Origin: Kribbella antibiotica
GTDB taxonomy: Bacteria; Actinomycetota; Actinomycetes; Propionibacteriales; Kribbellaceae
Direction of reading: 5' to 3'
Length of the DNA: 64,000 bases
Assembly: GCF_004349055.1 (NCBI RefSeq)
Contig: NZ_SMKX01000006.1
Location: forward strand, 1-64,000
This document shows, one piece after another, positions 36,822-43,003 of the stretch. The number at the start of each line of letters is the position of its first letter. Position 1 is the stretch's first letter. Both the position numbers and the translations under genes were made by a program. The notes below the pieces were generated by a model. It did not search any database. It saw only the letters and a program-made list of their open reading frames with translations, and was not told the origin of the DNA.

Positions 36822-39800
36822 TTAGGCGTCGGTGGGGCGGTGGAGGGTTTCCAGGAGGTGGGTTAGCACTTTGTCTGGGGATTGGATCCAGTCGGCGGTG
36901 AGGACGTGGTGGACTCGCCAGCCGGTGGTTTTGAGGGCGGCTGGGTGGGTGGTGAGGCGTTCTAGGAGGGTGTCGGCGGAGACTCGGGCTGGGGTGTCTA
37001 CGAGGACTGCCATGCGGTAGCCGGGGTCGCCGGGGAGGCGGAGGGCCAGGTCGCAGCGGAAGACGGAGTTGCCGACGGTGGTTTCGACCTCGACGCCATG
37101 GGCTTCCAGCGCCTCGCGGAGTTGGGTGACAACGGCAGCCTGTACGGCGGTAGCAGTCGCCGGTGCGGACGCGCGACGGGCTGGGGCGGTGAACGAGGCG
37201 AGCGCGGCGCGGGCTGCGGGGACGTCGCCTCGGGAGACTGCGGAGGCGTAGCCGAGGAATCGGCGGAGGGTGTTGGCGCCGTCGTTGTAGGTGTTGGTGA
37301 TCGCCTCGGGCTCGATGCTGCTGACGACGACCATGTGGTGGCGGGCTCGGCTGAAGATGACGTTCAGGCGCTTCTCACCGCCGGAGGTGTTGATCGGGCC
37401 GAAGTTCATCAGCATGCGGCCGTCGGCACCGGCGGCGTAGCAGACGCTCATCAGGATGATGTCGCGCTCGTCGCCCTGGACGTTCTCCAGGTTCTTCACG
37501 AACAGGCCGACGTCTTGCTCGCCCTGCGTCCGCACCTGTTCCGCGTCGTAGAGCGCGCCGAACTCAGGATCGCCCTCCGCCAGTTCGTCCAGCGCACGCT
37601 CGATTTCGGTCTGCTGGGCCTCGGAGAACGCGACAATCCCGATGCTCTTCCCGGTCTCCCGCGACAACAGCTCTCGCACGAGTTCCGCGATCCAGCGGGC
37701 CTCGGCCGGGTTGGTCCGCCGTACGTAGACGCCGTCGGCCAGCCGGATCGAGGTGATGCTGCCGTTCAGCAGGCTGTCGCAGACCTCGCTCACCATCGGC
37801 GCGTCCGAGCGCAGGAGCCACGGCGGCGCGACGTTGGCCGGGAGCCGATCCGGGACTGTGGCCAGCCGGCTTTGGTAGAACGCCGAGTTGCTGAACGAAA
37901 TCAGCGCCTCCGAACGACTGCGGTAGTGCCAGGTGAGCATCGTGGAGGCGAGTCGCAGCGCACTGATCGAGAGGAAGCTGTCCTCTGTCAACGCGACCCC
38001 GACCTGCTCCGAGGACTCCTCCTCAAGATCCCCATCCGAGCGGACCCGGAAGTACTGCGTCGGCGGCAGCTGCATCTGGTCGCCGACGACGACCACCTGC
38101 GGCGCCCGATGGAGGGCCGGAATCGCTTCCTCCACTGGGATCTGGCTCGCCTCGTCGTACACGACGACATCGAAGTCCGCGGTCAGTGGCAACGTGTCCG
38201 ACACCGACGACGGACTCATCAACCAGACCGGCCGGAGCGCAGACACCACGGCACCCGGAGCACCCGAAGCCAGGTCGCGGATCGACCGGTACCGCATCAC
38301 CTTGCCGAACTCGTGCTCCACCTCCCGCCGTCCGGTCGCGAACTGCTTCTTCCGAGCGCGGTCGTCCGGCGACATCCCGGTGACGCTCTGCTCGGAATGC
38401 TGAACCTCAGCGAGGAACCGCCGCCGAACCCCCGCGACGATCACCTCCGCCTCGAGCTCGGTCAGCTCGTCGTACACGACTCCCAGCTCGCCGACGATCG
38501 AATCCACCCGCGCTGACGGCAACCGCAGCGCCGCGGCCGATCGGGCCCGCTCCCATTCCGCCGCACACACGGAGTACTCAAGCTCATCAGGTGACGCGTC
38601 CAATCGCCGTACCGCGGTCTGCACGGTCGTCGATGCGGTCTGCAATTCGCGCAGCACCGGACCGACCGCCCGCACGACAGAGTCCGCGGCGATGAGTCGA
38701 TCCACCATCTCGCGGAGCGCGTCGACAGTCAGCGCCGCGTACTCCGCATCCAGCAGCTCCTGCGTCGGCCCCGAGGCAGCATCAAGCGCGCCCGCCAGCA
38801 ACACCAACCGCTCCGGTACGCCGTCCGCCAGCGCGAACCGCCAATCCGGCAACCGGGAATCAGCGCGGACCGCGGCCAGCCGCTCGACCAGCTCGCGCGG
38901 ATCGTCCACGCCCCACTCGGCCCGCTGCTGCTCGGCATGCGCAACCACTGCTGCAGTCGCCGAATGTGCAGCCACCAAGTCCGTCAGTATCTCCACCACG
39001 GCCGGCCGCACGGCCCGGCCCGAGCTGTCGAACCGGCTGTTCACCAGGCTCTTGACGCGTCGCCAATCCCCAGCCAGGAAGGAAAAAGGACCACCTTCCT
39101 TGCTCTGGGCAATGATCAGGGCCGACTTGGCATCGGCCGGAGCCAACGGCTCACTCCACCCCGCTGCACCCTCCCAAGCACTCCGCTCGGCGCCGGCCAA
39201 TCGCTCTCGCTCCGCGGCACTCGAGGCGAGACGCATGGCAGCATCCGAGCGTGGATCCAGCGCCTGCGCCCGATCCCGCCCGGCTAGGGGCGCCAACACC
39301 CGCCCCAACCTGGCGAGCGCCGCCACCTGACCCACAGTCCAATCACTCTCAGCCTCGGCTGTGATTGCTGCGGTTAGGGCGTCGGCAACGGTCGTCCATG
39401 CAGTGCGGACTGTGCGGGCGCGGTCGGACAGCTCGTCATCCGCCCAGCGAGCGGCAGCTACGTAGGCCAATGGGCTCCGAGCCAGCACTCCTCCGGTCTG
39501 CGGATCGGCGCTCGCCAGCTCTCGAGCTATCGCACGGACGGCATCGCGCGCAGGCCACCACTCGGCGGCCCGCGGAATCAGGTCGCCCTCAGCCTCGAAG
39601 CGATGGTCACGGAGCTCGGCGAGGCGGTCGACAACCTCCCGGAGCCGGGGTGAGCCCGCAGCCAGGATGCCCTCGAAATCGCCGACGGCGACCAGCAACC
39701 GGTCAACCCGGGCGACCAACTCGGAGCGCCGTTCGGTCAACTCGTCGAGGTTGTCCTCGCTGGCCAGCCAGGCTTCGTAGGTCTCGCGCAGCCCGTGCAC

Positions 39801-41849
39801 GAACGCCTTCTTGTCCGCCTGCGAGTCGTGGATCAGCGTGCACAACCCGTCCAGCCGCCGGCTCGCCAGCCGCGCGTGCACAACATCCAGCGCCGCCCGC
39901 TTCTGGCACACGAACAGCACTCGCTGCCCGCGCGCCACGAAGTCCGCGATCATGTTGGTGATCGTCTGCGACTTCCCCGTCCCCGGCGGCCCTTGGATCA
40001 CAAAGCTCTCGCCACGCTGCGCCCGCGCGATCGCACCGACCTGCGAACCGTCCGCCGGCACGACGAGGTGTCGCTCCCCCACCGGCAGCTCCGGCGGCAC
40101 CGGGCTGATCGGTCGCGGCCGATCCGAGAACAACTGATCGAACGACGCCGCGCTCTCACCCGAAGAAAGCAGCTCGTCGTAGTCGCGGACCAGCCCCAAC
40201 GTCCGGTAGTTGAAGTTCGCCAGCGACACCGCACACAAGTCGACGTCCCACGAATACGGTCCGCCGCCCGTGTCGAGCGAATAGGTGTCAGTCTCGATCG
40301 CCGCCGGATGCCGCGGCTCCGCGCCCAGCGCGACCCCCAGCGGCAGCACCTGCTGGACGATCTGCGACCGGAAGATCTGCACCCCGAGCGGCTGATAGTC
40401 CGACCGCCGGTACGAATACGCATACTGCTTGCCCGTGAAACCGACAGCTCCGCGCCGCTTGCCCCGCTGGTAGCTGCGCAGTTTCACGATCGCCCGCTGC
40501 CGCACGAGGTCGATCCGCGGCTTCTCCTGCAGGTGCAGCTGCAACCCTGGCTCGGTCGCCTGAATCTCCTTCGCCAGCCGCTCGTGGAGCATCATCAGCG
40601 CACCACGCTCGGACAGATCCACCGTCTCCGGCAACGTGATCCCGTACAGCTGATGCAAGTGATGACGCAGTGTCGGATTGACCTCGGCGATCGGATCAGT
40701 CACCCGGATCGTGTACGAGTCACGCACTCCGCGCTTCTTCGCCAGCTCAACCTTCACCAGGACCAAGGGCGAGGCCAGTCGCGTCCCCGGATCGTTCTTC
40801 AGGTCATGCCAGCGCAGGAACGCCGGCACCAACCGCAACTGATCCTGCCCGTACTCCGTCCGGTCCCGACGCGCCGTCGCGATCAGCTTGTCCAGCGTGC
40901 TCGCCGCGTACGGCGCCTCGTCGTACCGGATCCACTTACCGAGCGCCTGGGTCTTCCCCAGCAGTTGCGCTGCCAGGTCGTCGCGCCACGTGAACAACTG
41001 CTCCGCGCGGATCGTGCGGACGTCGAGCATCAGCGGCACCGACACCTCGGTCAGGTTCAGCGTCTGGCCGGTCGGGCGGAAGTTGATCAACCGGTTCCGC
41101 CGCGACAGATCAAAGAGCCGGTTCCGGAGCGCGCCGAGCACCGCCGTACGGCGGTCAGCTCCCGCAGCCGTGATCGCGGTGACGTCGAAGTCGAGCGGCT
41201 GGTCGCGGTAGTTCTCCAGCTGCTCGATCAGCGAGTGCAGATCCTGCGCCCGGCGGTGCCGATCCGGCTCGGCCATCTGCGCGGCGATCGAGACGATCAC
41301 CGGATGCAGTTGCGGCGCCAGCCGATAAAGGTTGCCGCGGGCATCGATCAGCTCGGCCACGTCCTCCGGACGGGACAGATCCAGGCCGATCCCCAGCGCC
41401 AGCAGTAGCTGGCCGAGGCTGTAGACATCGGTCAGCGGGTCGTGATGGCCGACCACGTGCTCCCAGCTCTGCCACCCCGGCACATGCGTCGGCGCAGTGA
41501 TCGCATCCGGAACGGGCTCAACCACCGACGTCTTGGCCCGACCACCGTCCGAACCGAGATCCAGCTCCGCCTGGCGATGCGCCACCACCTCGACGGCCGA
41601 GCTTCGTGGCCCCTGGCGACGGTCGATCTCCATCACGGCCAGGGTCGGTCGCCCGGCATCCTCGGGCCCGAACCCAAGCTGATGCTGATCATCAACAGTC
41701 AGCCGATCCAGCCCACGCAGCGGCGCCACCAGCCCTCGCTCGTGCACCTCGGCAGTCGCCCGGAACAGCGGCAGCACTGCGGCGAGCAGCGCATCGCTCC
41801 CGAGGCCATCCTCGGTCACGGCCAGCACGACCAACTCTTCGGCGCTCAC
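36822..41849 (-). CDS. Pseudokinase-DUF4011-SF1 helicase-Vsr-like nuclease
   Basis: This 1675-residue protein starts at GTG 41849, overlapping the protease stop as GTGA. Residues ~25-220 resemble a kinase C-lobe (AEVHERGLV, WQSWE, DVYSLGQLLLAL) whose HRD and DFG are replaced. Residues ~238-600 hold a DUF4011 region (ALRNRLFDLSRRNRLINF). A split superfamily 1 helicase follows: Walker A GPPGTGKSQT with K626, Walker B VVYDEASQIP with D1232-E1233, then LTWHYRSRSEALI, VQGDERDIILMSV and RLNVIFSRAR. Residues ~1570-1675 are a Vsr/MTES_1575-like nuclease (FRCDLALRLPGD with D1600, AVLVDTP, WRVHHVLTADWI). The DUF4011-helicase-Vsr core resembles the anti-phage protein Hhe. The protease partner and pseudokinase lobe suggest a protease-coupled nucleic-acid defence system, which is inferred. 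Confidence 0.85.
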   Translation of the reverse strand: MSAEELVVLAVTEDGLGSDALLAAVLPLFRATAEVHERGLVAPLRGLDRLTVDDQHQLGFGPEDAGRPTLAVMEIDRRQGPRSSAVEVVAHRQAELDLGSDGGRAKTSVVEPVPDAITAPTHVPGWQSWEHVVGHHDPLTDVYSLGQLLLALGIGLDLSRPEDVAELIDARGNLYRLAPQLHPVIVSIAAQMAEPDRHRRAQDLHSLIEQLENYRDQPLDFDVTAITAAGADRRTAVLGALRNRLFDLSRRNRLINFRPTGQTLNLTEVSVPLMLDVRTIRAEQLFTWRDDLAAQLLGKTQALGKWIRYDEAPYAASTLDKLIATARRDRTEYGQDQLRLVPAFLRWHDLKNDPGTRLASPLVLVKVELAKKRGVRDSYTIRVTDPIAEVNPTLRHHLHQLYGITLPETVDLSERGALMMLHERLAKEIQATEPGLQLHLQEKPRIDLVRQRAIVKLRSYQRGKRRGAVGFTGKQYAYSYRRSDYQPLGVQIFRSQIVQQVLPLGVALGAEPRHPAAIETDTYSLDTGGGPYSWDVDLCAVSLANFNYRTLGLVRDYDELLSSGESAASFDQLFSDRPRPISPVPPELPVGERHLVVPADGSQVGAIARAQRGESFVIQGPPGTGKSQTITNMIADFVARGQRVLFVCQKRAALDVVHARLASRRLDGLCTLIHDSQADKKAFVHGLRETYEAWLASEDNLDELTERRSELVARVDRLLVAVGDFEGILAAGSPRLREVVDRLAELRDHRFEAEGDLIPRAAEWWPARDAVRAIARELASADPQTGGVLARSPLAYVAAARWADDELSDRARTVRTAWTTVADALTAAITAEAESDWTVGQVAALARLGRVLAPLAGRDRAQALDPRSDAAMRLASSAAERERLAGAERSAWEGAAGWSEPLAPADAKSALIIAQSKEGGPFSFLAGDWRRVKSLVNSRFDSSGRAVRPAVVEILTDLVAAHSATAAVVAHAEQQRAEWGVDDPRELVERLAAVRADSRLPDWRFALADGVPERLVLLAGALDAASGPTQELLDAEYAALTVDALREMVDRLIAADSVVRAVGPVLRELQTASTTVQTAVRRLDASPDELEYSVCAAEWERARSAAALRLPSARVDSIVGELGVVYDELTELEAEVIVAGVRRRFLAEVQHSEQSVTGMSPDDRARKKQFATGRREVEHEFGKVMRYRSIRDLASGAPGAVVSALRPVWLMSPSSVSDTLPLTADFDVVVYDEASQIPVEEAIPALHRAPQVVVVGDQMQLPPTQYFRVRSDGDLEEESSEQVGVALTEDSFLSISALRLASTMLTWHYRSRSEALISFSNSAFYQSRLATVPDRLPANVAPPWLLRSDAPMVSEVCDSLLNGSITSIRLADGVYVRRTNPAEARWIAELVRELLSRETGKSIGIVAFSEAQQTEIERALDELAEGDPEFGALYDAEQVRTQGEQDVGLFVKNLENVQGDERDIILMSVCYAAGADGRMLMNFGPINTSGGEKRLNVIFSRARHHMVVVSSIEPEAITNTYNDGANTLRRFLGYASAVSRGDVPAARAALASFTAPARRASAPATATAVQAAVVTQLREALEAHGVEVETTVGNSVFRCDLALRLPGDPGYRMAVLVDTPARVSADTLLERLTTHPAALKTTGWRVHHVLTADWIQSPDKVLTHLLETLHRPTDA

Positions 41850-43003
41850 TCGGCCGCCTCCCCGACCAGCCGAGCGCGTTCCTTGTCGCTCCACCCGAGC
41901 TCGCTGTCCGCAACATCGACGTACCCACCAAGCCCAGTACGACGGGCAATCCCGAGCGACGCGATCAGCCCATCAGCACCGGTATCGGGATCAGCGGTGG
42001 CCAGGTCCAGCAGCAGGTACGCCAGATAGCGCCTGGTGGAGTCGGCCAACGGCCGGGGTCGAGGCAATGGCGCGCCATCAACCGGCCGCACCGTCAGCGG
42101 CTCGTCGAACCGCAACACCGACCCAGGCACCCCCAACGGCCCCGGCGGATCCGCGAACCCGGCCGCCGCCACCGCGACCGCTTCCGTCGCCAACCCGTCC
42201 GTCCCAGCGATCAACGCCGCGAAGTCCCGACTGACCTCAGCCAGCAACTCGGCATCGAGCAGATCGGGCGCATCCACGTCGAGCGCGCCGGTGACCACGG
42301 ACTCCACGTTCTCCTCCGCCAGCCAGCCCTTCAACGCCCAGGCCCGCATCACCGCCTCGGGATGCGACGTCCCCCGGCTCCCCGAACTCAGATCGACCGT
42401 CTCCGCCTGCCGCAGGTACGCCGCCGGGTCCGCCGAACTCAGCCCGGTCTCCAGCTTCAGCAACGCGCGAATCGTCGTACCGAGGTCGCCGCACGCGGTC
42501 AGTGCACCGCGGTCGGCAAACAGCTCGGTCGCCAGCGACCAGCGTCGATGCGTCTCCAGATATTGCGCCGACGTCCGCGCGTCACCCGCCGCCGCATCAA
42601 GCAAACGATCGACAGCGAGATACGCGCCGTCCTCGCTCTGCCACAACAGCCGATGGGCCAGCTCGTGCCCAATGACGGCCGTCAGCTCGTCTTCGTCCAG
42701 CCGATCGATCAGGGCGCCCTGGAACAGCACGACCGCCCGCCCAGCCTGATGCAGGTACGACGCGTTGGGCGCGCCGTTCACCTGGTAATACTCGACCGCG
42801 CTGTCCATCTCGAGGGCCTCAGCAGCACGCTGACCGGCCCGATGCACGCCCGGGTGTGCGTCAGCGGTCAGGAGATAGGCATTCCGGCGCAAGGCATCGT
42901 CGAGCTCGCCGTCGGGCGCACCCCGCAACGCAGCCCACGCAGCCTCGTCCTGACGGCGGACAACCGTCAGGACGGCTCGGTGATAACCCAGGACGGACAA
43001 CAT
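41846..43003 (-). CDS. Soluble M48-like zinc metalloprotease
   Basis: The 385-residue protein has the zinc protease motif VIGHELAHRLL (H113, E114, H117) and a downstream ELFADRGAL (E160...D164) matching the ExxAD third-ligand motif of M48 peptidases. An M48-type HEAT/TPR-like C-terminal region without membrane helices follows. M48 enzymes such as HtpX and BepA are usually membrane-bound or periplasmic; this one has no signal or transmembrane segment, so it should act in the cytoplasm. ATG 43003 lies 10 bp from a long palindromic element. It is translationally coupled to the pseudokinase-helicase-nuclease gene. A role in cleaving a host or phage protein after helicase activation is a hypothesis. 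Confidence 0.8.
   Translation of the reverse strand: MLSVLGYHRAVLTVVRRQDEAAWAALRGAPDGELDDALRRNAYLLTADAHPGVHRAGQRAAEALEMDSAVEYYQVNGAPNASYLHQAGRAVVLFQGALIDRLDEDELTAVIGHELAHRLLWQSEDGAYLAVDRLLDAAAGDARTSAQYLETHRRWSLATELFADRGALTACGDLGTTIRALLKLETGLSSADPAAYLRQAETVDLSSGSRGTSHPEAVMRAWALKGWLAEENVESVVTGALDVDAPDLLDAELLAEVSRDFAALIAGTDGLATEAVAVAAAGFADPPGPLGVPGSVLRFDEPLTVRPVDGAPLPRPRPLADSTRRYLAYLLLDLATADPDTGADGLIASLGIARRTGLGGYVDVADSELGWSDKERARLVGEAAE

Follow-up and report, generated by a model that had tools for sequence, protein, structure and literature searches.

Proteases of the SPRTN/SprT type are HEXXH enzymes that serve in the processing of DNA–protein crosslinks and act on DNA-bound proteins. In Mokosh type I, a COG1112-type helicase is paired with an STK domain (PMC11672841). 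Furthermore, PglW of type 2 BREX and some DndF proteins are large multidomain proteins of nucleic-acid systems that contain a pseudokinase, which lies beside an active kinase and a NERD nuclease; an SF1 helicase in the same chain is not described for them (PMC12839542). Here, we analysed a two-gene locus of Kribbella antibiotica lying in a stretch of 64,000 nucleotides (hereafter the window, taken from a genome assembly of 9.28 Mb in 348 contigs), in which a kinase fold is joined to a helicase and accompanied by a metalloprotease. This architecture is not described in the literature covered on DUF4011 helicases, M48–helicase defence pairs and COG1112–kinase fusions, a scope that subscription papers mostly fell outside.

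The two genes and their domains lie on the reverse strand (−). The helicase gene occupies positions 36822–41849 and encodes a product of 1675 amino acids. Its GTG start codon at 41849 shares the tetranucleotide GTGA with the stop codon of the upstream open reading frame, and this start is supported by relatives, whose start codon lies at the same place. Pfam leaves residues 1–240 blank and then assigns a DUF4011 domain (residues 244–398, 40656–41120; PF13195, E 1.7e-15), a COG1112-like SF1 helicase core composed of AAA_11 and AAA_12 (residues 600–1511, 37317–40052; PF13086/PF13087) and an MTES_1575 restriction-endonuclease fold (residues 1576–1669, 36843–37124; PF18741, E 3.2e-12). The motifs of the helicase core are intact, and they are invariant in 23 full-length homologues (GPPGTGKSQT, DEASQ, GDQMQLPPT, QGDER, and SRA). 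On the other hand, the A(V/I)E(C/T)DG of canonical MTES_1575 domains is replaced in the endonuclease domain by AVLVD, AILLD or a similar sequence (AVLVD for AVECDG in the present protein), and the catalytic glutamate is missing in all 23 aligned full-length family members. Given this family-wide loss, the nuclease is probably inactive, as judged from its sequence. The same replacement was observed in two other DUF4011 helicases (L151 and L153), and the nuclease annotation of this branch may therefore be wrong. Three Verrucomicrobiota members sent to Pfam (L068, L123, and L131) additionally carry a C-terminal WGR domain on the helicase. In PARPs, WGR domains are associated with DNA breaks.

The upstream gene (41846–43003), whose stop overlaps the helicase start, encodes a soluble M48-type zinc metalloprotease (PF01435, E 2.5e-11). 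Its zinc-binding HELAH is located at 42653–42667, and the glutamate serving as third ligand lies within TELFADR at about 42524–42526. Both the HEXXH motif and this downstream glutamate are kept in the alignment of the partner proteases. Some homologues of the protease also match SprT-like weakly, below the cut-off of Pfam. The C-terminus of the protease (about residues 300–385) is conserved, helical-looking and, by eye, TerB-like, with no Pfam call.

The N-terminus of the helicase protein, submitted as a single sequence, gave no kinase match in Pfam or PDB sequence searches. Among 34 family members only two attained even E 0.15, and the weak class-level matches of single sequences were mostly due to chance, with the exception of L030, a true kinase. 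An earlier AlphaFold model built on 25 Kribbella sequences, i.e., on close relatives only, reached a pLDDT of 39.7 and was unusable. Taken by themselves, these results favour the view that the N-terminus is no kinase at all and resembles one by chance. We nevertheless assign a negligible probability to it, given that profile searches, profile–profile comparison with shuffled controls and fold comparison all agree on a kinase. A profile of 10 family rows retrieved eight proteins from outside the family at E 1.6e-8 to 0.007 over profile residues 123–227, all of them Hanks kinases in which HRD and DFG are intact, while a ninth such match (E 0.008) was spurious. This retrieval is in line with the first-pass annotation, which had read the N-terminus as a kinase C-lobe. 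When the 34-row family alignment was compared with Hanks kinases by hhalign, residues 10–216 aligned to helices D–I (probability 97.6%, E 2.8e-12 against active kinases; probability 99.0%, E 5e-17 and a score of 92.4 on repetition with other settings), whereas 30 column-shuffled controls scored at most 10.6. As the kinases used in this comparison had themselves been selected by the family profile, the shuffles and the fold constitute the independent tests. A PDB search started from the family profile likewise yielded kinases for the most part, again in this register, although no match was better than E 0.017.

The two halves of the domain differ in how strongly they are recognized. Residues 1–118 aligned alone obtained a profile score of 14.0, which is weak (the best full-length shuffle is the 10.6 given above), in the correct register; by sequence alone, the signal is thus strong after residue 119 and weak, though in register, before it. 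The kinase assignment of the N-terminal half consequently comes mainly from the structure model. AlphaFold2, run on a diverse alignment that contained no active kinase, produced a kinase C-lobe with a pLDDT of 82.8 and a pTM of 0.77, in which residues 1–80 and 110–170 are mostly around or above pLDDT 90. Kinases were the top matches among those listed when Foldseek was run against the PDB and a viral library. In VIA-align, the model matched residues 98–278 of Mycobacterium tuberculosis PknB (Z 14.5, 2.9 Å over 152 residues) and IRAK4 (Z 14.6). Profile, shuffle and fold evidence together make the kinase fold secure over the whole of residues 1–216 (41202–41849), which almost certainly represent the dead C-lobe of a Hanks-type protein kinase, comprising helices D to I, without the N-lobe. 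The first-pass annotation had confined the domain to 41400–41849 and placed its beginning near helix E. A C-lobe is indeed found there, but it runs on to about residue 216 (41202), and the model puts its start at helix D. The same model bears out the proposed fold itself.

The residues lost and kept were then counted in 34 aligned homologues from Actinomycetota and Verrucomicrobiota. Helices D and E, up to the invariant His36 of an AHxxG motif, span residues 3–37 (41739–41843), as placed by the secondary structure of the model and by the profile alignment, with conservation of His36 in 34/34. At the position aligned to HRDIKP, residues 42–44 (41718–41726) read Ala-Pro-Leu in place of HRD, and these letters are kept in 33, 30, and 33 of the 34 sequences, respectively. 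The HRD aspartate is replaced by Leu or Ile throughout, the position of the catalytic-loop lysine holds Gly in 31 sequences, and DFG occurs in the activation-segment region of none. A longer insert (residues ~61–120), partly of low confidence in the model, takes the place of the activation segment. On the other hand, Glu130 of the APE-like SWE (residues 128–130, 41460–41468), Asp141 and Gly146 of the subdomain IX element DVYSLG at the start of helix F (residues 141–146, 41412–41429), and Arg200 in the subdomain XI block EPDRHRRAQD (residues 194–203, 41241–41270), the counterpart of the invariant kinase arginine, are found in 34/34. In both phyla the catalytic set has disappeared, while the residues from which the C-lobe is built are retained.

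These counts bear on most of what had been read from the single sequence. The reading frame, GTG 41849 and the motifs HERGLV (36–41), APLRGLD (42–48), GFG (59–61), and SWE (128–130) are present as quoted, as is the subdomain IX block DVYSLGQLLLAL at residues 141–152. The reported loss of HRD is solid. The letters GFG were correctly located, but their interpretation as what is left of DFG was rejected, as G61 is shared by only 3 of the 34 aligned relatives. Likewise, the absence of an N-lobe and of catalytic residues holds for all homologues retrieved from the two phyla: the protein begins at helix D, and an N-lobe with a glycine-rich loop and lysine was found in none of them. It had also been considered that homologues might retain HRD and DFG, or that the N-lobe might be encoded upstream. 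Neither was seen in any homologue, and the second candidate was rejected because the upstream gene is that of the M48 protease.

Some pseudokinases perform unexpected chemistry, for example, AMPylation and glutamylation. Studies of pseudokinases of this kind are cited in PMC13174449. By analogy, the degenerate lobe could be an atypical enzyme carrying out another reaction. We consider this very improbable, since the HRD aspartate, the catalytic-loop lysine and DFG are gone in all aligned homologues and, with the N-lobe absent, there is neither a glycine-rich loop nor a lysine for the nucleotide.

Our main reading, to which we give slightly better than even odds (roughly 0.55), is that the C-lobe functions as a non-catalytic docking or regulatory module in a two-gene protease–helicase system. 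The first-pass annotation had proposed a protein-binding or sensing platform, which is a reasonable suggestion. The lobe would most likely use the face with which the former kinase docked its substrates to bind either a client protein or the partner protease. Such binding would be coupled to the helicase, with the C-lobe either controlling the helicase or being carried by it. Alternatively, the lobe might be a structural remnant, i.e., a rigid scaffold packed against DUF4011 that places it and the helicase, without any binding partner of its own. In all cases the C-lobe is fused to DUF4011, with conservation extending across the linker from one into the other, as a scaffold would predict. However, the family possesses invariant or near-invariant motifs of its own (HERGLVAPL, WExxxGHHD, and HPVI), whose conservation exceeds what the kinase fold requires, and a separate protease is inherited together with the helicase. 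We therefore regard the scaffold as unlikely.

The co-inheritance of the two genes is relevant to the docking module. The protease gene was found 5′ of the helicase gene at all 25 Kribbella loci, in the single actinobacterium outside Kribbella and in 15 of the 16 Verrucomicrobiota, and at nearly all loci the two genes are directly adjacent. In one genome (G1237), a small open reading frame separates the two genes, and no HEXXH protease was seen near the helicase at L124/G878. With the family-specific protease counted as present at E 1e-145 or better, protease and helicase were both present in 25 and both absent in 13 of 38 Kribbella genomes (raw counts that ignore kinship). The 13 genomes without the pair possess only a distant M48 paralogue. 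One of them (G019) retains a relic of the protease start (G019:C2:139685-139780; 32 residues, 66% identity), which is a sign of loss.

The module is the same in all 42 genomes in which it was found, namely 25 Kribbella, one other actinobacterium and 16 Verrucomicrobiota, and searches of plasmids and viral contigs found no homologues. In the window, a siderophore ABC transport operon adjoins the protease–helicase pair, an arrangement common to several Kribbella; in others, the pair sits elsewhere, with its position conserved within sub-clades. Neighbours in Verrucomicrobiota include purB as well as mutL-like and RND-efflux-like genes, the latter two recognized by eye. Three Verrucomicrobiota MAGs (L069–L071) share a conserved order running from a mutL-like gene to purB, the M48 protease and the helicase. 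Furthermore, in two distant Verrucomicrobiota the gene following the helicase (L068:11614-12726 and L129:11177-13063) has a shared start, GxTWLWGPxLYxRNRxLF; no Pfam family was found for the L129 gene. Visual inspection and selected Pfam searches of the fetched neighbourhoods showed no defence-island context.

These distributions also bear on whether the pair serves in anti-phage defence, as a member of the broad class of COG1112 helicase systems that includes Mokosh, Hhe, and PDC-S37. The dead lobe would then sense a phage protein, and sensing would free the helicase and the protease to attack phage DNA or host targets. The occurrence within the genus is patchy (25 of 38 Kribbella, besides the G019 relic), and the helicase core matches PDC-S37, Hhe, and MkoA, types listed as defence candidates. 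The precedents of a helicase with STK in Mokosh type I (PMC11672841) and of the PglW pseudokinase in type 2 BREX (PMC12839542) point in the same direction. Nevertheless, the neighbours named above are ordinary chromosomal genes, plasmids and viral contigs are without any match, the position of the locus is kept within sub-clades, and the nuclease glutamate is gone. Defence with the lobe as a phage sensor is possible, but we hold it to be clearly less probable than the docking or regulatory module.

Given that module, the active enzymes of the pair would be an ATP-driven translocase and a protease only. Such a composition suggests loading onto nucleic acid, where bound proteins would be removed or degraded, whether in DNA–protein crosslinks or in stalled or foreign nucleoprotein complexes; the suggestion of protein removal is drawn from gene pairing and domain content. 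A translocase coupled to a protease on nucleoprotein would fit either the repair of DNA–protein crosslinks or defence. As a tentative extension, in the two-gene system, found in at least two phyla, the C-lobe may recruit or control the M48 protease, so that translocation is coupled to the stripping or cutting of proteins for crosslink repair or defence. Both the partner protease and the lost nuclease glutamate, neither of which the first-pass annotation had mentioned, are relevant to the mechanism. The locus provides an unusual and testable case of a kinase fold retained for other purposes, as a module only. It also exposes a conserved protease–helicase gene pair, and, the C-lobe being invisible to Pfam, such DUF4011 helicases are parsed incorrectly.

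Compared with known systems, the family shares with Hanks kinases such as PknB and IRAK4 the fold of helices D–I, the APE glutamate, the aspartate and glycine of subdomain IX and the arginine of subdomain XI, but it differs from them in having no N-lobe, HRD, catalytic-loop lysine or DFG and in the longer insert that occupies the site of the activation segment. SPRTN/SprT-type proteases differ from the partner protease, which is M48 by Pfam and encoded by a separate gene next to the helicase. The helicase core resembles that of Mokosh in that the PADLOC MkoA profile matches it at 3.2e-37. However, a PLD nuclease domain, a Mokosh feature, was found by Pfam in neither the helicase protein nor the adjacent gene, and the system is therefore not Mokosh. 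It further differs from Mokosh type I in its M48 protease partner, in having a kinase domain of which one half is missing and the other dead, and in the added DUF4011 and restriction-endonuclease fold. PADLOC PDC-S37 matches the SF1 core at 4.5e-186 (best stretch at residues 534–1335, profile positions 218–1045 of 1550), and PADLOC Hhe matches the C-terminal helicase–endonuclease part at 2.3e-94 (best stretch from residue 1167), although the endonuclease glutamate is lost here. As these stretches begin at residues 534 and 1167, respectively, the pseudokinase front lies outside both. In our comparison, PglW of type 2 BREX comes closest as an earlier example of a dead kinase in this kind of context. 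Kinase–helicase pairings and pseudokinases are thus already known, and what is unusual here is a kinase of which the C-lobe is all that remains, which is dead in all relatives across the two phyla and co-inherited with a protease.
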